IMG/VR virus record: IMGVR_UViG_3300032224_000591
Location: 1 to 64,000 of that record
From: a virus
DNA length: 64,000 nt
Strand: one strand, 5' to 3'
The number at the start of each line of letters is the position of its first letter. Within the stretch, counting starts at the first letter, position 1. The position numbers and the translations under genes were made by a program. Below the pieces are notes generated by a model that made no database searches, was not told the origin of the DNA, and saw only the letters and a list, made by a program, of their open reading frames with translations. This document shows, piece after piece, positions 2,493 to 31,312 of the stretch.

Positions 2493-3028
2493 AGAAGGCA
2501 ATCTTCTTCGATCGAGATGGTGTGCTTAATCATCTCGTAGACCATGATGGAGAGATGACCGCTCCTTGGCACATCGATGAGTTTCGATTCATCGAAGGTG
2601 CTGGGGATGCAGTTGAACTAGCTAATGACATGGGTTACATATCTCTAGTTGTTACTAATCAACCAGATGTTTATGATGGTAAGTTGTCTATTCACCACCT
2701 AAAGATGATGATGAAGATGTGCATGCAGTGGCTTAATGCTGCTGATGCATTAGTTGCTTTCGAACGTGGTTCTGCATGGTACAAACCAAACAATGGTATG
2801 ATAGAGACATTGATCCGCGGTTATAACATCGATCGTGGACAATCATATATAATAGGTGACAGATGGAAAGACATCGTCGCCGGTCACAAGAGTAGGTTGA
2901 CTACTATCTATGTGGGTCCAGAACCCTATAGCTCCCCAGAAAAATATCAACACATATATCCAGACCATATCGCAAGCAATGTACTAGAGGCTTGCTTTCT
3001 CATAGCGGAGATGAACCCAGATGATTAA
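2438..3028 (+). CDS. gmhB: HAD phosphatase, GmhB-like (heptose-1,7-bisphosphate 7-phosphatase)
   Basis: A HAD-superfamily phosphatase with FFDRDGVLN (motif I, Asp-x-Asp), VVTNQPDV (motif II), a KPNNGM lysine and IGDRWKDI (motif III). This is the order seen in GmhB, which removes the C7 phosphate of heptose-1,7-bisphosphate. Unlike typical GmhB it has no cysteine-rich zinc loop before the KP motif: the segment reads ERGSAWYKPNNG. The start is uncertain. ATG 2438 has AGGCG upstream but overlaps gmhA by 55 bases, whereas GTG 2486 would sit on the gmhA stop and start just before the first strand. Function is supported by the neighbours. Confidence 0.75.
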   Translation: MALSSLTPKVTNQRYEVVKKAIFFDRDGVLNHLVDHDGEMTAPWHIDEFRFIEGAGDAVELANDMGYISLVVTNQPDVYDGKLSIHHLKMMMKMCMQWLNAADALVAFERGSAWYKPNNGMIETLIRGYNIDRGQSYIIGDRWKDIVAGHKSRLTTIYVGPEPYSSPEKYQHIYPDHIASNVLEACFLIAEMNPDD

Positions 3029-3752
3029 ACTATATGCCGATGGCGCTGATTGGAATGGCATCGTAGATGCTGCTAACGACCCAGATATTAAGGGTTTCAC
3101 CACTAACCCAACACTGATGCGTCAGGCTGGTGTCACAAACTACACTGACTTCTCTACGTTCGCTATCTCATACCTTGCCAAGAATCGTCCTGATACGACT
3201 TTAAGCCTTGAAGTGTTTGCAGATACTCCCTCTGAGATTATTCGTCAGGCTCGCAAGATTAATGATTGGGGTGATGCTGCTGGTTATCCAGTCTATGTGA
3301 AGATTCCTGTTATGTACACTAATGGTGATTCGACTGGCGATCTTATCAAGCAGTTGAGCCATGAAGGCATCAAGCTGAATGTGACCGCCGTGTTCACTGA
3401 AGAGCAGACTAGTGAGATTATCGATAACCTGTTTATCGATACTCCTAGCATCATCTCTATCTTTGCTGGTCGTATCGCTGATGCTGGTCAGGATCCGGAA
3501 TCGATTGTTACCCGCTGTACGATGTTGTATGATGAAGTTCGCGAGCTTGGTGGTAAGACAGAGTTCCTCTGGGCATCTTCACGTGAGGCATATAATATTC
3601 ATCATGCAGCCTGGGCTGGTTGTGACATCATCACAATGACTCCTGACTTGATTAAGAAGGTAAAGGCCTTCGGTAAGGATCTAACGCAGTTCTCACGTGA
3701 GACTTGCCAAATGTTCTATAATGACGCAGTGAAGAGTGGATTTGAACTATGA
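3021..3752 (+). CDS. Transaldolase / fructose-6-phosphate aldolase-like protein
   Basis: A 243-residue class I aldolase of the transaldolase family. It has LYADGADW near the N-terminus, the FTTNPTLM signature, YVKIPV with the Schiff-base lysine near residue 95, and NVTAVFT. TalC-type transaldolases occur in cyanophages and in small-transaldolase subfamilies. Transaldolase can form sedoheptulose-7-phosphate, which is the substrate of the GmhA encoded two genes upstream, so it plausibly feeds the heptose pathway from host pentose-phosphate pools (inference). It overlaps both neighbours by four to eight bases. Confidence 0.85.
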   Translation: MIKLYADGADWNGIVDAANDPDIKGFTTNPTLMRQAGVTNYTDFSTFAISYLAKNRPDTTLSLEVFADTPSEIIRQARKINDWGDAAGYPVYVKIPVMYTNGDSTGDLIKQLSHEGIKLNVTAVFTEEQTSEIIDNLFIDTPSIISIFAGRIADAGQDPESIVTRCTMLYDEVRELGGKTEFLWASSREAYNIHHAAWAGCDIITMTPDLIKKVKAFGKDLTQFSRETCQMFYNDAVKSGFEL

Positions 3753-4759
3753 GCTTTGAAGAGAATGAAGTTTCCATTAATGCAAATGGTGGAACCGAGA
3801 TCGCTAAGCGTAAGCTAGCACAGATTATCGATTCTGAATTACTCGATAACTTTCAGATTGTTAGCTCACGTATACGTGATTTGGATCCTACAAAGATTCG
3901 AATCTTCTGGGCACATGACCTTGCTGAAGATCCAGAGTCAAAGAAGTTTCAGGATCGAAGCTTTCAATCAAGCTGGCACAAGTATGTGTTTATCTCTGAT
4001 TGGCAGTATCAGCGTTATCAGCTAGTGCATGGTATTCCATATGATGCTAAGTCAGCTGTTCTTGAGTCTGGTATTGAACCTGCTGATGATAATGTTTTTG
4101 ATATGAAGAAGAGTGAAGATGGTAAGATTCATCTAGTCTATACATCTACGCCACAGCGTGGCCTTGAGATTCTTCTTCCTGTGTTTGAGAAGCTTACAGA
4201 GATTCATCCTGACATTCATCTTGATGTGTTCTCATCGTTTAAGATCTATGGATGGGACGATGCTGATAAGCAGTTTGAGCCTCTCTATGATCGTATTCGC
4301 AACAACCCTAACATGACATATCATGGTTTCGTTCCTAATGCAGACTTGAAGGCACATCTGAATAAGTCACATATCTTTGCCTATCCTTCTATCTGGCTTG
4401 AGACTTCATGCCGTGCAATGCTTGAAGCTATGTCTGCTGGATTAGTGTGTGTCCATCCTAACTTTGGTGCTCTTGCTGAAACATCTGGTGGTCTAAACAT
4501 CATGTATCAGGGTGACTTCGATGATAAGAATGCACATGCTAATATCTTCATCAATCATCTAAACTCTGCTATCAACTTCGTTCGCAATAACGATCATGAA
4601 TCGATGATTAGATTTAATAAGGTGTTTGCCGATTCACGATACAATATCACTCGTGTCAAGAATCAGTGGGAACTTATGCTGCGTGAGTTACTAAGGGAAT
4701 ATCCTACTGTTGAGTCGCGTGCAATCAAGAAGCTTCCCGATATGGTTTACAGGACATGA
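3749..4759 (+). CDS. GT4-like glycosyltransferase
   Basis: A 336-residue GT-B glycosyltransferase. It has an early GGTEIAKRKL glycine motif, a C-terminal domain starting LVYTSTPQRGLEILL, then YHGFVPNADLKAHL and PSIWLETSCRAMLEAMSAG, an E-x7-E-type motif characteristic of family GT4. The N-terminal acceptor domain is short. It should transfer the sugar activated by this operon to an acceptor. Host LPS or capsule, a virion protein and modified DNA are all possible and sequence does not choose between them. It is coupled by ATGA overlaps to the transaldolase and the kinase. Confidence 0.82.
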   Translation: MSFEENEVSINANGGTEIAKRKLAQIIDSELLDNFQIVSSRIRDLDPTKIRIFWAHDLAEDPESKKFQDRSFQSSWHKYVFISDWQYQRYQLVHGIPYDAKSAVLESGIEPADDNVFDMKKSEDGKIHLVYTSTPQRGLEILLPVFEKLTEIHPDIHLDVFSSFKIYGWDDADKQFEPLYDRIRNNPNMTYHGFVPNADLKAHLNKSHIFAYPSIWLETSCRAMLEAMSAGLVCVHPNFGALAETSGGLNIMYQGDFDDKNAHANIFINHLNSAINFVRNNDHESMIRFNKVFADSRYNITRVKNQWELMLRELLREYPTVESRAIKKLPDMVYRT

Positions 4760-14986: not shown

Positions 14987-15247
14987 ATGTTCATTGAAAT
15001 CGACGAAGAGCTTATCGACCGTATCATCAAGCAGCGCCTCGAGGAGGACTGGATCCATGCTAACAAGGAAGTCATGATCCTTGAGAGTGAGGATCGCCGT
15101 GGTGAACTCAAGCCTTATCAGCGTGAGGATCTTGAGATGTACCGTAGGCTAATTCCTGCAATGCGCATTATGGCTGCATGGCACTTCACAAAGCCCGAGC
15201 AGGAAGAAATCTTTGGTGTACAAGACGATGATGATGTGATAGAATAA
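14987..15247 (+). CDS. Small acidic T4-like phage protein, unknown
   Basis: An 86-residue helical protein starting MFIEIDEELIDRIIKQRLEEDW, with middle LKPYQREDLEMYRRLIPAMRI and an acidic tail ending DDDDVIE. Such proteins are common in the early regions of T4-like phages. It is the last gene before the tmRNA; its stop at 15245-15247 lies within a late-promoter-like AATAAATA. Confidence 0.62.
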   Translation: MFIEIDEELIDRIIKQRLEEDWIHANKEVMILESEDRRGELKPYQREDLEMYRRLIPAMRIMAAWHFTKPEQEEIFGVQDDDDVIE

Positions 15248-15250
15248 ATA
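15243..15250 (+). promoter_or_regulatory. Possible late promoter AATAAATA before the tmRNA
   Basis: One base off TATAAATA and just upstream of the tmRNA acceptor piece. It overlaps the stop codon of the preceding gene, so it could be coincidence. No sigma70-type promoter of the TGTACW family is seen for the tmRNA. Confidence 0.3.
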
Positions 15251-15255
15251 CAGTT

Positions 15256-15322
15256 GCAAAGGTTGTTGATGCGTAAGGAATAGACGTTCTGGACCCGGGG
15301 GCGGTACCCGGCGCCTCCACCA
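15256..15322 (+). ncRNA. ssrA: Two-piece tmRNA, acceptor piece (permuted ssrA)
   Basis: The segment ends GGACCCGG, a T-arm-like hairpin (CCGGG with CCCGG around the seven-base loop GGCGGTA), the 3' acceptor strand CGCCTCC (15312-15318) and A-CCA (15319-15322). The acceptor strand pairs over seven positions with GGGGGCG at 15453-15459, including a G3-U70 pair, the alanine identity element. In the permuted alphaproteobacterial tmRNA this acceptor half comes first and the tag-coding half second, exactly as here. The 5' end is approximate. The T-loop is not TTCRA; whether that is usual for the host lineage needs comparison. Confidence 0.85.
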
Positions 15323-15450
15323 TAAACACACAGGGGTCAATATGTGGTATCTTGCTTGGGCTTGGTTTTCTAATTCATCACATATCAATGTGAGCCAACA
15401 TAGGAAGCATACTTCCCGGTATGAAGATTTGTGCATGTAGTGTGTTTATG
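15321..15450 (+). ncRNA. Excised intervening segment of the pre-tmRNA
   Basis: CATAAACACAC (15321-15331) is perfectly complementary to GTGTGTTTATG (15440-15450). This 11-bp helix stacks on the acceptor stem and joins the two tmRNA halves in the precursor. The segment between is expected to be cut out. It holds no convincing reading frame. Confidence 0.7.
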
Positions 15451-15452
15451 AT

Positions 15453-15596
15453 GGGGGCGAAATAGGTTCGACAGGATGCAGTAAAGGTACGAGTAGACCA
15501 ATGCAAACGTTAGATGCAAACGATAATGCACCTCTAGTTATGGCACTTGCTGCCTAACATGCGTCCGGGGGAACGTGGAAACAGAATCCCCCATCT
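15453..15596 (+). ncRNA. ssrA: Two-piece tmRNA, tag-coding piece (permuted ssrA)
   Basis: Begins with the 5' acceptor strand GGGGGCG and a D-arm-like GAAATAGGTTCGACAGG. The tag frame at 15516-15557 reads ANDNAPLVMALAA and stop, with resume codon GCA. ANDN at the start and ALAA at the end are hallmarks of alphaproteobacterial degradation tags. A GGGGG/CCCCC stem at about 15567-15592 (pseudoknot region) follows, and the 3' end is placed there approximately. With the acceptor piece it would rescue stalled ribosomes and mark their products for proteolysis. Confidence 0.87.
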
Positions 15597-15602
15597 ATCT
15601 GT

Positions 15603-15679
15603 GGTCACTTAGCTCAGCTGGATAGAGCATCAGACTTCTAATCTGAGGGTCGATGGTTCGAGTCCATCAGTGATCGCCA
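15603..15679 (+). tRNA. tRNA-Arg (anticodon UCU), CCA encoded
   Basis: GGTCACT (15603-15609) pairs with AGTGATC (15669-15675), followed by discriminator G and encoded CCA. The D-arm AGCTCAGCTGGATAGAGC, the anticodon stem TCAGA/TCTGA with loop CTTCTAA, and the T-loop TTCGAGT are all present. Anticodon TCT reads AGA/AGG. It lies about seven bases after the tmRNA piece, so both may be processed from one transcript. Confidence 0.93.
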
Positions 15680-23343: not shown

Positions 23344-25599
23344 TTAGTTACCCGGGTGAAACATTCCTAGCAAGCTACCAGATGAGTTCTGTGCTTGAGG
23401 CGCTGGTGTATCATTCTTTGAATTATTTTTCTTACTACCAGGTGGACCCATGTTACTTGTCTTATCAGAACTATATGGTGCTCCACCTGATCCGGCACCA
23501 CTAGCTGATTTCTTTGGTTTAGGTGGTGGCGGTGGAGGGGCTTTAGGTGCTGACTTTTCTGGCACAAATTGATCGATAGCATAATCAGCAACCATACTAC
23601 CAACCGCACCGACAACGCCACCACCGGGCGCCATACGTATAGCAGACTTCGCTGCCTTATTGTAGTCACCATTATAAGTGTGATAAGCAGTCTCAGCACC
23701 AGCTACAACCTGACCAGCAACCGGTACAAATGATATAGCAGTCTTTGCTAAACCCACACCAATGTCGATAAGCCCATCGTTATTATCATGAGGCTCAACA
23801 CGGTCACCTTTCTTTAGGTTAACAGCTGTTGCTCTATTTGGAGTGACTAATGTTTTACCGTCACGCTTAACTTTCTCTCTACCCTTCTCACCGACAATAG
23901 CCGGACCTGAATTTGGCACAGATGGTGAACCACTCGCATATCCCTTGATATTACCTTGACGATCTAATGGTACAGATCCGCCTTCACCCTGTGCTGCAGA
24001 GAAATGCATCGGATCGGGTGTACTTCTAAAGTTTCTACCCCAACCCAATCCCCACTTTGCAGCAATAGCATTCGTACCATCTGGCATATCTGACTGGCGT
24101 GAACCATTGGCATTAGTAGCGGGATTAATGTCGATAGCAGCACCAAATGAGTGATAGCTAAGGACGTTAGGGTTGTTAGCATTAGCGCGAACCGCCTGAC
24201 CACCCATCGACTTAATCTTATAGTCACGTGACTCTAGATCGTTAACAAGCCCTTGGAATGCAGCTTGATATGGCTTATTAACTTTGGCGGATGGTCCGCT
24301 CTTAGATGTAATCGACACGAGATCCAGTTTACTCGTGATACCAGAGTAGTCAATAGATCCACGATCGGTAGGTTGTGATGTGTCACCTACACCTTTAGCA
24401 TCGCTGGCAGATGGTGATGCACCTTTATCCTGAGAGCCGGGTGAACTACCAATGCCAGGTGTAGTCGATCCTGGCGTTGCTGATGATGTAATATCATCAA
24501 GACTCTGTACACCACCTAGTAGAATAACCTCATTGGCTTTAAGCTCCATCGTTGCAGCGATAAATTTAATCTGCTCAGACGCATTAAATGATAGTGTGTC
24601 CTTCATGATAGCAGTTGAACTGCCTTCAGTCTTTGCACCATGATCCTCAAGAACATTAGCAGCAATAGTCTGACCTTCACCAGAAACTAATGCTGCACCA
24701 TTTGTTGGCTTCTTTCCCTTCTTTTCAAACAGTTTATCGAGAAGCTTTTGCGTGACTTCTTCAACAGTATCACCTAGGAAATATTCAGCAACTGTACCAG
24801 CAGCAAGACCTGCAAGGAATCCAACGATAGCACCAGGACCTGTTGGTGAAAGGATAGCAGCCATAAGAGCTCCGGCGGCCATACCTAAACCAATGTGTGC
24901 AACTAGGCTCGTAACAATACGAGTCGCTTTCTCAAAATGATCTGGGTCATCAGGGCTAATAGCTGATAGTTCTTTATATGCATCCCATGCAAGCTTAGCT
25001 GCCATCAACCAGCCAACAGTTTTAACTACCTTCACACCGGTACTACTAGTACCAGCTGCGGGTCCTTCTGCAACCTTTGGGCCAGATACTTTCTCAGCTG
25101 GCTTTACACCGGTCGCCTTCTCTTGATTGACCATCTTACCGGTCTTCTCTTCATGATAGCGACCGGTCTTCTCATTATATCGATAGCCTTTTCTTGCCTT
25201 TGGTGGCTTCTTAGGCTTAGGCTTATCACCTTTTTTATTTCTATCATAATCAAAGTCTGGCAAATCAATAGGGTTTTGATTGTTCTTCAAATCTTGTAGA
25301 GCACCAAGAATATCTCTCAGTACTTCATTCTGTGCATTTTGCAATGCAACTGACTGAGAGAGAATCTCATTAGTCATGACAGTGTTTTCTGTCAGCTGAT
25401 CAACCGCCGCAGTTACTTCAGATGTAGCCGTTGGCTTATCTTTGTTACTCTTAGTTTTACGGAATCTCTCACCAAGTGCATATGCTTTTGGGAAGGCTCT
25501 AGAGAGAATCTCTTTACCAAGACCCTTCTCCTTAACTCCCTGAATAAGCTTTGTGGCTTCCGGAAATGCGATACTGCCTAATGTTCCTAGAACGCCCAT
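23344..25599 (-). CDS. Large tail protein with M15-type peptidase domain
   Basis: A 751-residue protein. The N-terminal 110 residues are helical (AVDQLTENTVMTNEILSQSV), then comes a lysine-rich linker, a hydrophobic glycine/alanine stretch around 230-275 (LGMAAGALMAAILSPTG) and at about 445-540 a peptidase M15 (VanY/L-Ala-D-Glu-like) domain with SYHSFGAAIDIN and DPMHFS, the H-x6-D and second His of the zinc site. The C-terminal 200 residues are low-complexity with PPPPPPKPKK. Such domains on tail proteins cut peptidoglycan during DNA entry. It overlaps the upstream gene by one base. Confidence 0.7.
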   Translation of the reverse strand: MGVLGTLGSIAFPEATKLIQGVKEKGLGKEILSRAFPKAYALGERFRKTKSNKDKPTATSEVTAAVDQLTENTVMTNEILSQSVALQNAQNEVLRDILGALQDLKNNQNPIDLPDFDYDRNKKGDKPKPKKPPKARKGYRYNEKTGRYHEEKTGKMVNQEKATGVKPAEKVSGPKVAEGPAAGTSSTGVKVVKTVGWLMAAKLAWDAYKELSAISPDDPDHFEKATRIVTSLVAHIGLGMAAGALMAAILSPTGPGAIVGFLAGLAAGTVAEYFLGDTVEEVTQKLLDKLFEKKGKKPTNGAALVSGEGQTIAANVLEDHGAKTEGSSTAIMKDTLSFNASEQIKFIAATMELKANEVILLGGVQSLDDITSSATPGSTTPGIGSSPGSQDKGASPSASDAKGVGDTSQPTDRGSIDYSGITSKLDLVSITSKSGPSAKVNKPYQAAFQGLVNDLESRDYKIKSMGGQAVRANANNPNVLSYHSFGAAIDINPATNANGSRQSDMPDGTNAIAAKWGLGWGRNFRSTPDPMHFSAAQGEGGSVPLDRQGNIKGYASGSPSVPNSGPAIVGEKGREKVKRDGKTLVTPNRATAVNLKKGDRVEPHDNNDGLIDIGVGLAKTAISFVPVAGQVVAGAETAYHTYNGDYNKAAKSAIRMAPGGGVVGAVGSMVADYAIDQFVPEKSAPKAPPPPPPKPKKSASGAGSGGAPYSSDKTSNMGPPGSKKNNSKNDTPAPQAQNSSGSLLGMFHPGN

Positions 25600-28529
25600 T
25601 ATAAGCCCCCGCGTGCAGCAGCGCTATTATTTTTCTTACCAAACAGATATGGGAAATATTTGCCCATCCAACTACCATCAGGGTCCGGATCGGTTGTATC
25701 ATGGCCGGTAGTCTGGTCAGAACCACTCTTATATGCGGCGCCTTGATCCCTGTCATCACCTTCACGTGCTGAAGCTCTCGCTGCAGCTTCTCTATTACCT
25801 TCAATATCAAATGATCCGGCATTTGCTAGAGCAGCATTACGTAATGTTCCAGCGGGACGTTGGACTCCATTAACCGGCGCTTCTGTTATCTGTTGTGCTA
25901 AGGGTTGTGCTGCAGCACCTCTTTTACGAATCTCATCATCATTCTCAATTTGCTGGCGTTCAGCGGCCGTGTTAGCCTCCGACCCTTCATCAATTCTCAT
26001 TGCCTTTAGTTTAGCCTGACGAGCATTCTCTTCCTCATCTCGCTTAGCATTAGCTTCAGCTGTTGCTGTTATACTTTTAGCGTGTTCTTGGCCTGCTCGT
26101 CGTGGATCACTTGCCCATTCAGCAGTTTCTCTATCACGCTTTTGTTGAAAATTTTCTTCAGGTGGTCCCTGGACTTCACCCAAACCTTCTGGTCTACGTG
26201 GTGGTGGTAGGGGCACAACCTTTTCAGCTGCTACAGTAATAGTCTTCTTAATCTTAGGTGGCTTCATACCAAGTTCTAGTGTACGCTGCTTATCAGCAGC
26301 AAAGAACATTGCATGAGTATCTTCACCGCGGCGCTCTGCATCCTGATGTGCCTGGAACATTGCACGTGACTTAGCATGACGATCCCAGTTAGGGTCATCA
26401 ATCTCAATAGTCTTAGTCTGTGGCTTTGGCTTTACGACCTTTTCTGGAGCAGGGATTGCTGCTGCTTTACGTGCAGCCACTTCTGCTGCACCATCTCCTC
26501 TACCACTGCCGACAAATTCTTGACGTGGAGTTCCTGGGATTGCAGCGGCCCCACTTCCACTTGCATCGTATATTGGTGCTTCACCCTCAATGAATGTATT
26601 AGGCTTTGGCTTTTTAGCATCGGCCGCTTCGGCTGCTTCCTTTGCAGCCATCATCTTCTCCATAGGACCAGTTATGGCTTTAGCATTAGCTGCAGCTGTT
26701 AGCTGTGCACCTTGTACCATGTCTTCTCTGTCAGCCGCATCCATTCTAGCATTAGATGCCTGCACACCAGGCGCAGCATCAGCGACTCTAACTGCACCAG
26801 CTGGCCCTGCGCCGGGGGCACCTGGAGGAGTGCCTTCTACTTTTTGTGCAGTGTCACCTGGCTTCTTTGCTACGCCACCGGATGTAAGTGCTGATAGGTA
26901 ATGAGCAGGTGCGGCACCGTTTGGATTACCGGTAACCCACTTTGCTGTAGCCTGACCAAGAGTTAGATTCGAATAACTTCTATCCCATAGAGCCTTTTGT
27001 GCCTTACGACCGGCTTCCATATCAGGGAACTTAAGAAGTGTACCGACAGAGTTTGACTGACCAAGCTCTGCACCAAACGGTTTAGCCCACTCTGGAACAC
27101 CTTTACCCTTACCGACAAGAATCGCACCAGGATTATTCATCCTGTTAGGAAGTGTACCGGCCTTAGTAGCGCCTTCGGCGCGGGCTTGATTATCTAGTAG
27201 CTTTTCCTTTTGATCGTCAGTGAGTTCACTCCACTTCTGGTTCGAACCTGGAGGAGCGCCTTGAGCTCCTGTAATAGCCGCTGTATCATTGCTACCACCA
27301 GGTGAACCACCTGGGGATCCACCAGGAGCGCCACCGGGTGATGCGCCAGGTGAGGATGATGATCCACCAGGGGAAGAACCGGTTGAGCCGCCAGGGCCGC
27401 TCCCTGCGGCACCAGCACCACCAGCCCCACCTGGTTTTTGGCCAGCACCACCGCCGGCAGATGTTGCAGCGTTAACTGACTGCTGTGACTTAGCTTGTAC
27501 CTTGCTTATTTCACTTTTTTTTACAGACTTTGCATCGATCGTTAGCTGACCGACTTCAAAAACAAGCTTATCAGTTCTAAATGTTAGATTCTTACTATCA
27601 AAGTTTAAGTTGCCCTTAAGCTTCTCACCACGACTCTGAGCTTCAGCTATTCCAGCTGTTGTAGACTTTCCACCAGTTGAAGGTGGAGGAGCTTGAACTG
27701 GCGAAGATGGTTGTAATGGTGAACTAGTAGGTGGAGTAGCTACATTCGGTGTAGGTGTATCGCTCTCTTCATTGAAGCGACCACCACCAAATGTTCCCTC
27801 ATCTTCCTCATCCTCGGGCATATAGCTATATGCGGTTACTCCAGCAACAGCGCCTGCTGCTAGACCTCCACCGATAATAGCACTACGCTTGCCGGCACCT
27901 GGGCGTTTAGGTGTAGTCTTACCGTTGCCACCACCTAAATTAGGTAGATTTAGGCCACTGCCAATCTTCATACCCTTAATGGCTTGTGATATATCAGATA
28001 GGATTGTTAGTGAGCGTGTCTGAAGACTAATCTGCTCTCTGATAAGCTGATTGTTCTCACGCATGATACCACCGACAGCATTAATACTGAACTTGGTTTC
28101 ATTCTTCTCACGCTTATCATCGTTGACTGCGTTGTTATCGGGGTTTGATGGGGTACTATTAGAAGGTTGACTGATGTTTATATTACGCTGCTTTTCCTTC
28201 TCAGCATCAGCATACATCTCCTTGAAGGCATCCTTCAAGAGCTTCTTTTCATTAACCTTACGCTTGTTCTCAGCCTTCGTATAAAGGTCGTCAAAGATTT
28301 CCTTGACGTCCTTCTTGGTAAGAATGCTCTTACGAGTTTTCTTACTCTCTTCCTTCTCAGCCTTGACTTCGTCCTTTAAAGCCTTCTGCTCAGCGTCAAG
28401 CTTTGCCTGTTCTGCTTGCTGTGCGGCAAGTGCGGCTGCGATCTGCTCTTGGGCACGACCACCACCCTTGCCGCCCTCGCGCATCAGTTGGGCAAGAATC
28501 TCTTCGCCTGATTGTGCTTTGCCTGCCAT
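25599..28529 (-). CDS. Large tail protein, candidate tape measure with lysozyme-like domain
   Basis: A 976-residue protein following the gp26/frameshift product, where many phages keep their tape measure gene. The N-terminus is coiled coil (AALAAQQAEQAKLDAEQKALKDEV). A glycine/proline/serine-rich segment spans about 355-415. At about 450-550 lies a domain with RMNNPGAILVG, FGAELGQSNSVGTLLKFPDMEAG and LTLGQATAKWVTGNP, resembling the 'NNPGNI' domains of phage virion lysins. The rest is helical and repetitive. Tape-measure or hub role is inferred from size, coiled coil and position; I cannot align it to T4 gp29. Confidence 0.6.
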   Translation of the reverse strand: MAGKAQSGEEILAQLMREGGKGGGRAQEQIAAALAAQQAEQAKLDAEQKALKDEVKAEKEESKKTRKSILTKKDVKEIFDDLYTKAENKRKVNEKKLLKDAFKEMYADAEKEKQRNINISQPSNSTPSNPDNNAVNDDKREKNETKFSINAVGGIMRENNQLIREQISLQTRSLTILSDISQAIKGMKIGSGLNLPNLGGGNGKTTPKRPGAGKRSAIIGGGLAAGAVAGVTAYSYMPEDEEDEGTFGGGRFNEESDTPTPNVATPPTSSPLQPSSPVQAPPPSTGGKSTTAGIAEAQSRGEKLKGNLNFDSKNLTFRTDKLVFEVGQLTIDAKSVKKSEISKVQAKSQQSVNAATSAGGGAGQKPGGAGGAGAAGSGPGGSTGSSPGGSSSSPGASPGGAPGGSPGGSPGGSNDTAAITGAQGAPPGSNQKWSELTDDQKEKLLDNQARAEGATKAGTLPNRMNNPGAILVGKGKGVPEWAKPFGAELGQSNSVGTLLKFPDMEAGRKAQKALWDRSYSNLTLGQATAKWVTGNPNGAAPAHYLSALTSGGVAKKPGDTAQKVEGTPPGAPGAGPAGAVRVADAAPGVQASNARMDAADREDMVQGAQLTAAANAKAITGPMEKMMAAKEAAEAADAKKPKPNTFIEGEAPIYDASGSGAAAIPGTPRQEFVGSGRGDGAAEVAARKAAAIPAPEKVVKPKPQTKTIEIDDPNWDRHAKSRAMFQAHQDAERRGEDTHAMFFAADKQRTLELGMKPPKIKKTITVAAEKVVPLPPPRRPEGLGEVQGPPEENFQQKRDRETAEWASDPRRAGQEHAKSITATAEANAKRDEEENARQAKLKAMRIDEGSEANTAAERQQIENDDEIRKRGAAAQPLAQQITEAPVNGVQRPAGTLRNAALANAGSFDIEGNREAAARASAREGDDRDQGAAYKSGSDQTTGHDTTDPDPDGSWMGKYFPYLFGKKNNSAAARGGL

Positions 28530-28532
28530 CTA

Positions 28533-28712
28533 CTAACCTTGTCTTTGACGTTCTTCTTGCTCTTTGATAAAGGCAATCAATAGCTCAACGTAAATATCCC
28601 TTTCGAAAACAATTAAGTTCTCGATTTCAGATATTTGATATTTATGATGCTGAGCCAGAGAGAAGATTGTCTGGTAGTAGTTGTCTAGGGTATTGTGACT
28701 CAGCGCAAGGTA
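28533..28712 (-). CDS. gp51-like extension of gp26, reached by -1 frameshift
   Basis: The -1 frame opens immediately after a TGA that precedes the U7 run and contains no ATG or GTG, so it cannot be started normally. After the slip it adds 59 residues, starting YLALSHNTLDNYYQTIFSLA and continuing QHHKYQISEIENLIVFERD to a TAG at 28535-28533. This sequence resembles the small gp51-annotated proteins next to gp26 in T4-like cyanophages. The fused product would be about 293 residues. The arrangement copies the G/GT tail-assembly-chaperone logic upstream of tape measure genes. Confidence 0.78.
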   Translation of the reverse strand, partial: YLALSHNTLDNYYQTIFSLAQHHKYQISEIENLIVFERDIYVELLIAFIKEQEERQRQG

Positions 28713-29413
28713 AAAAAATCAGATAACGTTGTAAGCTCGATCGTCTTATCGAGCCCCATTGTATTCTTGTACTCTAGCTTATAGTACAGTGAAGGGAGGT
28801 TTGACATAAACTCACGGACAAGTTCAAAGCTCTTGATGTCCATAAGTTCAAGGAACTCGAGGAGGTCATCCTCACTAAAGTCCTTGCCCTCATATACATT
28901 ATCTGCATCATAGATCTGGCCAATACAGCGAACGACCAGGCGATAGAACGTCTCATCACCCTCTGACTTAAGGAAGATCTTATCATCGTAGATGTAAGCT
29001 GGTGGGTACTGCATCACCAAACCTGACTTATCAGTGATTGCAATTTTAGTATCCTGGGATTCTGGATACTTAATTTCGACCTTCTTCAGGTCAACCTCAA
29101 AGTCATAGACTTGCTGGTCTTCCATATCACGGTATGATACCTTGATACTATCACCAATAGAGAACCCACGAAGACGAACGAATAGAAACTCAAGGGCAAA
29201 CAAAGGAATCTTATCAACATCGAATGTTGGATCCATACTACAATTGTTGACAACCTGCTTGATAGCTGTCAACATATCAGTCTTGTCATCACTGATTTTA
29301 GCCATCAGCAAAAGCTTCTCTTCCTTAACAAGCATCGGCCTAAATGAATAGGCTTTGTTATCAGGTGGAACAGTAAGTGAAATCGTAGGATACGAGATTT
29401 TAGGAAGTGCCAT
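28700..29413 (-). CDS. 26: gp26-like baseplate/tail chaperone protein
   Basis: A 237-residue protein opening MALPKISYPTISLTVPP, with FRPMLVKEEKLLLMAK, VKKVE-like strands and a helical C-terminus (DLLEFLELMDIKSFELVREF). This is the conserved form of T4 gp26-family baseplate proteins. ATG 29413 has TTGGAG six bases upstream; a TTG further up is not needed. The last codons, SDFF then TLR and stop, lie on the U UUU UUU slippery run, so two products are expected. It heads the gp26-tape-measure part of the operon. Confidence 0.83.
   Translation of the reverse strand: MALPKISYPTISLTVPPDNKAYSFRPMLVKEEKLLLMAKISDDKTDMLTAIKQVVNNCSMDPTFDVDKIPLFALEFLFVRLRGFSIGDSIKVSYRDMEDQQVYDFEVDLKKVEIKYPESQDTKIAITDKSGLVMQYPPAYIYDDKIFLKSEGDETFYRLVVRCIGQIYDADNVYEGKDFSEDDLLEFLELMDIKSFELVREFMSNLPSLYYKLEYKNTMGLDKTIELTTLSDFFTLR
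28712..28718 (-). promoter_or_regulatory. Slippery heptamer U UUU UUU for -1 frameshifting
   Basis: Seven consecutive T's on the minus strand stand in the X XXY YYZ register of the gp26 frame (GAT TTT TTT ACC). The gp26 stop follows four codons later. No strong downstream stem was found by eye; GUC at 28697-28695 can pair weakly with GAC at about 28685. Confidence 0.8.
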
Positions 29414-29435: not shown

Positions 29436-30161
29436 TTAAGCCACAGACAAATTAGCTGGGATTACACGTGCATCGTTGTTAGGATTGTTTAGTGATGACT
29501 GTCTGGCTCTTTGTACTCGTGCAGACAAACCAGAAGCACCATCATCGATTGACCACTCACTGAATGAAATCTTAGCAGTAACCTTCAGAAGGTTATTGTT
29601 ATCACTCCATGATAGGGGCGTATCATTCAATGCAATAGGAAAGGCTTTATAAAGATTATATGATAGAACACGCTCGCCAGATGTATCGAATAAAGTAATT
29701 TCGATCTGCGCACAGTATGTATCCTTATACTCAGTCGTATAGAACTTTCTGTTATTATCTAGTTTAGATGATGTCATTCCAGTGGCGCCACCGGTAGCAA
29801 AAATATAGTTTATCCAATTATACCAAAATACATATGCCATACCTGATCTATCACATACAAATGTCAGATCGATGTCTGTATAGTTTCCGCTAAATGGAAT
29901 CTTCTCTTGAATACCAACACCAAAACGATTGCTATCGATGGTTCTTAGAGCCATACCAGGAAGTGAAGCAGCAATACATCTAAACGTTAGATCGTCAGCA
30001 ATATCTCTAACAGCTACTTGACCGGCTGCATCGGTCGATACAGTTGAGTTGACCATGGCATTATTTTGCCCAGAGAATGAGATCATTACCTCATACTTAT
30101 TTGTCTGGAGGATACCACCATCCTCCATTACAGCCTTAAATTCTTCGATGTCGAATGCCAT
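29436..30161 (-). CDS. 54: gp54-like tail tube initiator / tube-fold protein
   Basis: A 241-residue protein with N-terminal FDIEEFKAVMEDGGILQTNKYEVMI, LTFRCIAASLPGMAL, FGVGIQEKIPFSGNYTDIDLTF and a C-terminal half of beta strands (CAQIEITLFDTSGERVLSYN, then YKAFPIALNDTPLSW). This is the tail-tube (gp19/gp54/gp48) superfamily pattern. With gp48 encoded separately at 31347, gp54, the protein on which tube polymerisation starts, is the best match; a tube protein is the alternative. It starts one base before its neighbour's stop. Confidence 0.65.
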   Translation of the reverse strand: MAFDIEEFKAVMEDGGILQTNKYEVMISFSGQNNAMVNSTVSTDAAGQVAVRDIADDLTFRCIAASLPGMALRTIDSNRFGVGIQEKIPFSGNYTDIDLTFVCDRSGMAYVFWYNWINYIFATGGATGMTSSKLDNNRKFYTTEYKDTYCAQIEITLFDTSGERVLSYNLYKAFPIALNDTPLSWSDNNNLLKVTAKISFSEWSIDDGASGLSARVQRARQSSLNNPNNDARVIPANLSVA

Positions 30162-30847
30162 TAGATCCTCGTAAGTGATTCTTTCCAGACGTCTGATTTG
30201 CGTTTTCCTTGGAACCTATCAATAGGTAGCATCAAAGCAACATCCCATTCGTCTGGTGCTATATAAAGAAATGGCGACCTAACATGATTAATAAGGTATC
30301 TCTTCACACAAGGCTTAAATGGTCCAAACCTAGAAGCGCCCTGTAGAATCTGATATGAGATTTTAAGCTGTGTCTTCTCATCATATGTGTCCTCAACAGC
30401 TACAGCTTTAGATACAAACTTACCAGTCGCTACCTCAGTGTATTTCCCAGGTGATACTTCCTTATAGCCTTCTTTTATCTTAGTTCTTTTATTTATAGTG
30501 CTGTAAAGAGCGTCCATCAATTTAGCTCTCATCACAGGAGGCAGATAGTGCATGTTGATACCGAGGAATCCATCTGAATATATCTCGATTGGGAATATCA
30601 ATGGGTACATATCATAGTAGGGTAGGACTTCCTTCAGCTTTGGATCGTACTGGAAGGTGTACATCTTACCGATAGAATCCTCGTCAATCTTTCCTTTACG
30701 ATTAACCTCTGCAGCTTTATTGATGATATTGCCGGGCTTTACAGAACGGATAGATAAAGCCTTCTCACGAAACCAGTCTACAGACTTCTTCGGATCTAAA
30801 CCGGCAGCCTTGCCCTTATTCAGAATGTTTTGAAATGTTGTCGCCAT
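30161..30847 (-). CDS. Conserved T4-like phage protein next to gp4
   Basis: A 228-residue protein whose core reads GKMYTFQYDPKLKEVLPYYD, MYPLIFPIEIYSDGFLGINMH, YLPPVMRAKLMDALY and later YLINHVRSPFLYIAPDEWDVALMLP. The same block recurs in T4-like phages of cyanobacteria and rhizobia in structural regions. Its place right after gp4 recalls T4 gene 2 (DNA end protector), but I cannot confirm homology. Virion or head-completion role is inferred. Confidence 0.6.
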   Translation of the reverse strand: MATTFQNILNKGKAAGLDPKKSVDWFREKALSIRSVKPGNIINKAAEVNRKGKIDEDSIGKMYTFQYDPKLKEVLPYYDMYPLIFPIEIYSDGFLGINMHYLPPVMRAKLMDALYSTINKRTKIKEGYKEVSPGKYTEVATGKFVSKAVAVEDTYDEKTQLKISYQILQGASRFGPFKPCVKRYLINHVRSPFLYIAPDEWDVALMLPIDRFQGKRKSDVWKESLTRI

Positions 30848-31296
30848 TAGAAGGTCAACCCTAACTCTTTCTCGGTTATAATGATAAACTCGTATCCACG
30901 ATCTTTGCAGTACTCACGGGCTGCTTTCCACTTAGCATCATTCACACCCCATGTCATAACCTCATTAATATACCTGCGGTTCTTAGAACCACCCTTCTGG
31001 ACAGTCGGAGGTCTTGTCTGAGTCAATGGCTTCACCTCTACAATCGCTGTCTTTATCTTTCCATCAGCAGTACGCATGTTGACTGTAAAGTCAGTGAAGT
31101 ACCTATGATACCTACCATCAATCGGCGAACGGTAAGGGATGATAGTCTCCTCACTCTGCCACCAAATCACATTTGGATCATTATCAAAACGGTTCATCAC
31201 GATGAGTTCCCACCTCGAACGATACACAATATTTGTAGGATCACCCTTGTACTTCTGAGGATTTTTGGGCTTAAAGTATCCCTTATATGTAGCCAT
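30847..31296 (-). CDS. 4: gp4-like head completion nuclease
   Basis: A 149-residue protein matching T4 gp4 (gp50) along its length: MATYKGYFKPKNPQKYKGDP, VYRSRWELIVMNRFD, WWQSEETIIPYRSPIDG, RYHRYFTDFTV and AIVEVKP. The E...D...ExK residues are those of a TnsA-like endonuclease fold. gp4 acts in head completion, joining heads to tails. I start at ATG 31296; a TTG twelve bases upstream is in frame. A late promoter on this strand lies 34 bases upstream. Confidence 0.9.
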   Translation of the reverse strand: MATYKGYFKPKNPQKYKGDPTNIVYRSRWELIVMNRFDNDPNVIWWQSEETIIPYRSPIDGRYHRYFTDFTVNMRTADGKIKTAIVEVKPLTQTRPPTVQKGGSKNRRYINEVMTWGVNDAKWKAAREYCKDRGYEFIIITEKELGLTF

Positions 31297-31312
31297 GCGG
31301 TCCTGCAAAAAC

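Follow-up and report, generated by a model that had tools for sequence, protein, structure and literature searches.

Gene organization at the gp26/51 locus

The locus lies in a window of 64,000 nucleotides (the whole stretch of DNA that was analysed) from a virus record of 167,756 bases. The gp26 homologue, the putative frameshift site and the -1 frame domain were all found on the minus strand, which the original prediction had not given. The features mapped in this region are as follows.

30847..31308, minus strand: gp4-like head closure protein (PHROG 218, E 2.3e-58)
30161..30847, minus strand: gp2-like DNA end protector (PHROG 429, E 4.3e-52)
29436..30161, minus strand: tail tube protein, upstream neighbour of the gp26 homologue (PHROG 45, E 5e-35; Pfam Phage_TTP_2, E 4.6e-11)
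28700..29413, minus strand: gp26 homologue, short form (TAC-N-like), 237 aa, ATG at 29413 and TGA at 28702-28700
28719..28721, minus strand: TGA shutting the -1 frame, immediately 5' of the heptamer
28712..28718, minus strand: slippery heptamer U UUU UUU, zero frame GAT TTT TTT ACC
28696..28704, minus strand: candidate stimulatory stem, 5' arm (GCUGAGUCA), which begins 7 nt past the heptamer and takes in the gp26 stop codon
28649..28657, minus strand: 3' arm of candidate stem (UGGCUCAGC)
28533..28712, minus strand: -1 frame gp51-like C-terminal domain, 59 codons (YLALSHNTLDNYY...RQG) and TAG (PHROG 634; T4 gp51 alignment)
25599..28529, minus strand: 976-aa gene just past the -1 frame stop, tape-measure candidate from position only
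23344..25599, minus strand: 751-aa gene with M15 peptidase domain, tail or lysis related (Pfam PF13539, E 8e-12)

The gp26 homologue has a GGAG 6 nt upstream of its ATG, and its zero-frame 3' end reads TCT GAT TTT TTT ACC TTG CGC TGA. The run begins with the last base of GAT, which puts it exactly in the U UUU UUU register, as had been predicted, and it lies three sense codons upstream of the gp26 stop. The -1 frame opens directly after the TGA at 28721-28719, at the run, and stays open for FF and 59 residues up to the TAG at 28535-28533. Its reported lack of a usable start also held, as the earliest ATG, GTG or TTG in this frame, a TTG, comes 122 nt beyond the gp26 stop and well inside the domain. 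The predicted gp26-51 fusion is 293 aa long with the junction ...SDFFYLALSH.... One copy each of the gp26 part and the gp51-like part was found in the 167,756-base record, at this single locus, and the same record did not contain two separate full-length gp26 and gp51 genes as in T4.

This arrangement very probably represents a -1 programmed frameshift that yields a short (gp26) and a long (gp26-51) tail assembly chaperone. Most ribosomes would read UUU UUU through to the stop and release the 237-aa short form, while a minority would move back by a single base at U UUU UUU, where both tRNA-Phe would pair with UUU again, and would go on in the -1 frame to give the 293-aa long form ending in the gp51-like domain. 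The two forms would then act jointly as a tail assembly chaperone pair like lambda gpG/gpGT, where the N-domain may bind the tape measure protein and the C-domain of the long form may recruit tail tube subunits. It is important to note that the shift itself, its efficiency and this chaperone mechanism are what we infer from the sequence, its homologies and its conservation.

Identity of the two parts and relationship to T4 gp26 and gp51

Profile searches matched the 237-aa part to Pfam PF12322 T4_baseplate (E 2.7e-45), the fusion to PHROG 150 (E 6.6e-57) and the 59-residue domain to PHROG 634, named 'baseplate hub assembly catalyst' (E 3.7e-24). The 59-residue domain, described earlier as compact and conserved-looking, is homologous to the C-terminus of T4 gp51 and aligned with it in our alignment A1. 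An AlphaFold2 model of the short form (mean pLDDT 91.5) gave no significant match in the PDB. Chains of the HK97 chaperone 2OB9 ranked 2 and 8 in the fold search without reaching significance (E 1.4-2.2; probability 0.38-0.41), and this predicted resemblance is a hint of HK97-chaperone kinship and no more. Among matches in a viral library, those that carry names were mostly gp26-like hub proteins, and the weak C-domain model (pLDDT 71.5) matched nothing in the structure search. Alignment A1 was too diverse for scanning, and single proteins therefore served as queries. The A1 profile searched against solved structures returned a leucine-rich-repeat match (E 0.0018) that was dismissed as implausible, and no credible match otherwise.

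In T4 itself, Krischvirus JSE, Lazarusvirus Konradin and Slopekvirus KP15, the short and the long protein each have a gene of their own, and the end of gp26 has no heptamer. Genes 26 and 51 are divergent in T4, whereas in JSE, Konradin and KP15 gene 51 is followed by gene 26 in tandem. T4 gp26 and T4 gp51 both match PF12322 (gp51 over residues 1-201), the end of T4 gp51 matches PHROG 634, and in alignment A1 T4 gp51 consists of the N-domain and the C-domain in one frame, with DVFKLL at the junction where others have FF. By this homology T4 gp51 is paralogous to gp26, has the C-terminal domain attached within a single frame and corresponds to the long form, which fits the earlier suggestion that gp26/gp51 of T4-like phages may do the same job. 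Relatives of T4 gp51 covering at least 80% of the query were present in 1,334 phage records. In an unrooted N-domain tree the two-gene sequences were separated from the frameshift sequences (99/97), and the long forms constituted one group (98/97). In KP15 (2501-3795 of its locus) the long gp51 and short gp26 stand in tandem on one strand, a possible trace of duplication.

The strongest alternative is that the frameshift is real and the pair nevertheless serves as a T4-type baseplate-hub factor with no G/GT-like role towards a tape measure. Database names for gp26 and gp51 (hub subunit and hub assembly catalyst) and the lack of a significant fold match to a known chaperone are in its favour, yet we consider it improbable given the gene order of tail tube, pair and large gene, the short and long arrangement, and the Konradin record, in which gp26 and gp51 are both labelled 'tape measure protein assembly chaperone'. 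Furthermore, short and long tail assembly chaperones of T4-like phages were identified earlier by Vladimirov, Gautam & Davidson 2022 (Virology 566:9-15), as cited in PMC10885494 and PMC12846349. The order tail tube - gp26/51 - large gene, the register, the absent start and the single copy all agree with the originally predicted frameshift fusion. The tape-measure identity of the large gene continues to follow from position only, the 976-aa product having no match in Pfam, PHROG or NCBIfam. The full order gp4 - gp2 - tail tube - gp26/51 - large gene is the same in Vibrio phage PG216 and agrees with the G/GT layout. A chaperone role would link T4 gp26 and gp51, whose names come from the baseplate hub, to the principle by which tail assembly chaperones work in other tailed phages.

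Conservation of the slippery site among homologous loci

Homologous loci possessing both parts were read directly in a set of 171, representing 64 clusters below 70% identity. The C-domain was in the -1 frame and T TTT TTN stood in slippery register in 171 of 171 loci, with T as the seventh base in 85 loci, C in 80, A in 5 and G in 1. At the cluster level T TTT TTY was found in 62 of 64, the remaining two having T TTT TTA and T TTT TTG, and the distance from the heptamer to the gp26 stop ranged from 0 to 8 codons among cluster representatives. Other Phe-Phe pairs in the same loci were encoded as T TTT TTY in only 12 of 138 cases (Fisher p 6e-40, a value that ignores kinship between clusters), and an in-register T6 occurred at 13 of 14,961 other codons of the gp26 ORFs. 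Judged by these codon counts, the slippery site is kept beyond the need of the protein, and the comparison strongly supports the predicted -1 frameshift that would fuse gp26 to the gp51-like domain. In-register heptamers of other kinds, GGG TTT A in cyanophages for example, were set aside as by-products of GGAGGG.

A tblastn search with the fusion retrieved 511 phage records, of which 492 covered at least 80% of the query, and among the matches listed each one spanning nearly the whole fusion was in two pieces. Isolates with the arrangement belonged to Kyanoviridae, Emdodecavirus, Pootjesviridae, Ionavirus, the Straboviridae genus Angelvirus and the subfamily Emmerichvirinae. They include Prochlorococcus phage Syn1 and Synechococcus phages S-PM2 and S-CRM01, as well as Pelagibacter phages HTVC008M and Mosig, Methylophilales phage Melnitz-1, Sinorhizobium phiN3, Rhizobium RHph_I46, Delftia PhiW-14, Stenotrophomonas DLP6, Aeromonas PX29 and AS-szw, and Vibrio D479 and VmeM-32. 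The Schizotequatrovirus PG216, read separately from the 171 loci, has the same gp26 end. Since it occurs in several families, and within the Straboviridae in genera that do not belong to the two-gene group, the frameshift would be the ancestral state.

One locus (L121) was considered as an exception and rejected, as an in-frame stop interrupts its gp26 (1464-2366) and the frameshift junction downstream is intact. Two loci have a gp26 end without six T's, namely Salmonella phage Se_AO1 of the Ackermannviridae (L124, 3231-3414; ATT TTC ATT TAA) and Vibrio phage D509 (L125, after 3181; CTT TTC AAG TAA). The -1 frame of both still encodes a C-domain-like peptide with MPWHL, so any shift site there must differ.

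Candidate stimulatory signals

In E. coli U_UUU_UUU is a weak shift site, and known stimulators are pairing to rRNA on the 5' side and stems on the 3' side (PMC5009743). At the present locus a candidate for such a stimulator was found at the usual distance, which is the stem 7 nt downstream in the window and an internal Shine-Dalgarno sequence in relatives. The stem pairs GCUGAGUCA with UGGCUCAGC over 9 bp and was found in the window's clade, here 28 sequences in 16 clusters defined by a stop three codons past the heptamer and not by pairing. For the window sequence alone the fold is -12.3 kcal/mol (z -2.2). Across the clade 98% of cells were paired vs 17-37% for slid controls, with pair 20:65 varying between GC, AU and GU and pair 21:64 between UG, CG and UA. 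When four neighbouring-clade clusters were added, taken regardless of pairing, both partners had changed in three of the pairs, and none of 500 shuffles, which leave relatedness in, attained the covariation score. Part of this pairing could reflect the conserved protein, the stem being within coding sequence. The nearest row to the window in the tree (L017, 2193-2276) has lost the stem, with CTA/CAA replacing CTG/CAG, and has no Shine-Dalgarno either, and its U UUU UUU is kept.

Downstream structure was not general, with a mean z of -0.6 over all clusters vs -0.2 for controls, and the stem was confined to the window's clade and its neighbours; a search of Rfam gave nothing relevant near the site. 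In most relatives a GGAGGG-like internal Shine-Dalgarno is present instead, about 10 nt upstream of the heptamer, and among Glu-Gly pairs the form NNG GAG GGN was used in 10 of 20 at the junction vs 1 of 88 elsewhere. The window's clade was without this signal, except for one locus (L136). Both signals are thus conserved features of the sequence; the slip is probably aided by the stem-loop in the window phage and probably by the internal Shine-Dalgarno in most relatives, a stimulatory role that we infer from their position.

Sorted by signal, 35 clusters had the Shine-Dalgarno only, 14 the stem only, 4 both and 11 neither, and a strong Shine-Dalgarno was negatively associated with the stem (p 1.3e-4 over clusters, uncorrected for kinship). 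In the fusion tree all 14 stem-only clusters fell in one clade (98/97) together with one 'both' and one 'neither' cluster, and the other three 'both' clusters were placed in the neighbouring clade. This distribution can be interpreted as an exchange of stimulators between lineages at one deeply conserved site, where most T4-like phages have a 5' Shine-Dalgarno and the window's clade has a 3' stem-loop that extends across the gp26 stop, with the neighbouring clusters bearing both signals as intermediates and the two-gene T4 branch having traded the frameshift away. We give this interpretation about even weight. If true, the locus would be a natural experiment on the rewiring of recoding signals in which the short and long protein are kept.

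Other routes to the -1 frame product

Transcriptional slippage, in which an extra U is inserted by RNA polymerase at the T run and part of the mRNA encodes the fusion, would give an identical product, and the run in the window is indeed seven T's long. We regard it as highly unlikely, as the run in 80 of the 171 loci is just six T's long and ends at a C, and slippage in bacteria has been described at stretches of nine A or T (PMC5009743). The codon register, which slippage does not need, is invariant, and a Shine-Dalgarno and a stem flanking the run are usual for sites of ribosomal shifting.

Less likely still is a separate small gene, with the gp51-like domain translated alone by re-initiation past the gp26 stop as annotated in GenBank. 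In many relatives annotated with a separate gp51, an ATG does follow the gp26 stop at a distance of 2-5 nt. However, the first possible -1 start is more than 30 nt past this stop in 28 of 64 clusters, the window offers none before the TTG described above, homology begins at FF upstream of the possible starts in relatives, and the domain is fused to an N-domain in T4 gp51. Record annotations also chose differing starts for gp51 or omitted the gene, as expected if its real start is a frameshift. Recognizing a programmed frameshift here would correct a widespread misannotation, in which the 'gp51' of many genomes of cyanophages and relatives represents part of a frameshift product or has been left out. 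An error of sequencing or assembly that split a single in-frame gene, conceivable for an error-prone homopolymer in a metagenomic virus contig, can be dismissed because the same -1 arrangement recurs in the 171 loci, several isolate genomes among them, and is shared by six-T and seven-T variants.

Comparison with known systems and previous work

The E. coli dnaX -1 frameshift combines a slippery heptamer with a 5' internal Shine-Dalgarno and a 3' stem-loop as stimulators. Both stimulators act at one site in dnaX, whereas the lineages described here mostly have one or the other. With the G/GT pairs of lambda, HK97 and P2 the locus shares a -1 shift, here a predicted one, near the end of the first ORF, a C-terminal extension in an overlapping frame and the position between tail tube and a large gene, but the slippery site is a different one and no sequence homology was found, the weak fold hint to 2OB9 being the one resemblance in structure. 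T4 gp26/gp51 are homologous and differ in the use of two genes. In the Vandenendeviridae/Andersonviridae, a different phage group that includes phage Adele, a -1 chaperone frameshift at a poly-T site is likewise present and the domain is routinely annotated as a separate hypothetical gene, with a GTTTTT motif in place of T TTT TTN (PMC12846349).

Our literature search for gp26/gp51 together with frameshifting met no direct report in the texts it covered, and Vladimirov et al. 2022 was encountered through the PRFect and Adele papers. According to these citing papers, some T4-like phages do without frameshifting and have a short chaperone gene alongside a long, fused one (PMC10885494), and the TAC-N genes of T4-like phages contain poly-T slippery sites (PMC12846349). 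As the chaperones of T4-like phages were identified earlier, the central idea is already published in the form in which these papers relate it. How widely loci were surveyed, the exact form of the T TTT TTN rule and the exchange of stimulators that the clusters suggest may be additions to that work as cited, and with a T4-like frameshift reported before, any novelty would lie mainly in the RNA signals that drive the slip. Natural variants of the locus differ separately in heptamer, internal Shine-Dalgarno and stem-loop, so that the strength of each signal and the needed ratio of short to long protein are testable.

Elsewhere in the virus record, ARAGORN identified a tmRNA (tag ANDNAPLVMALAA) overlapping a tRNA-Arg (tct) at window positions 15230-15679 on the plus strand.
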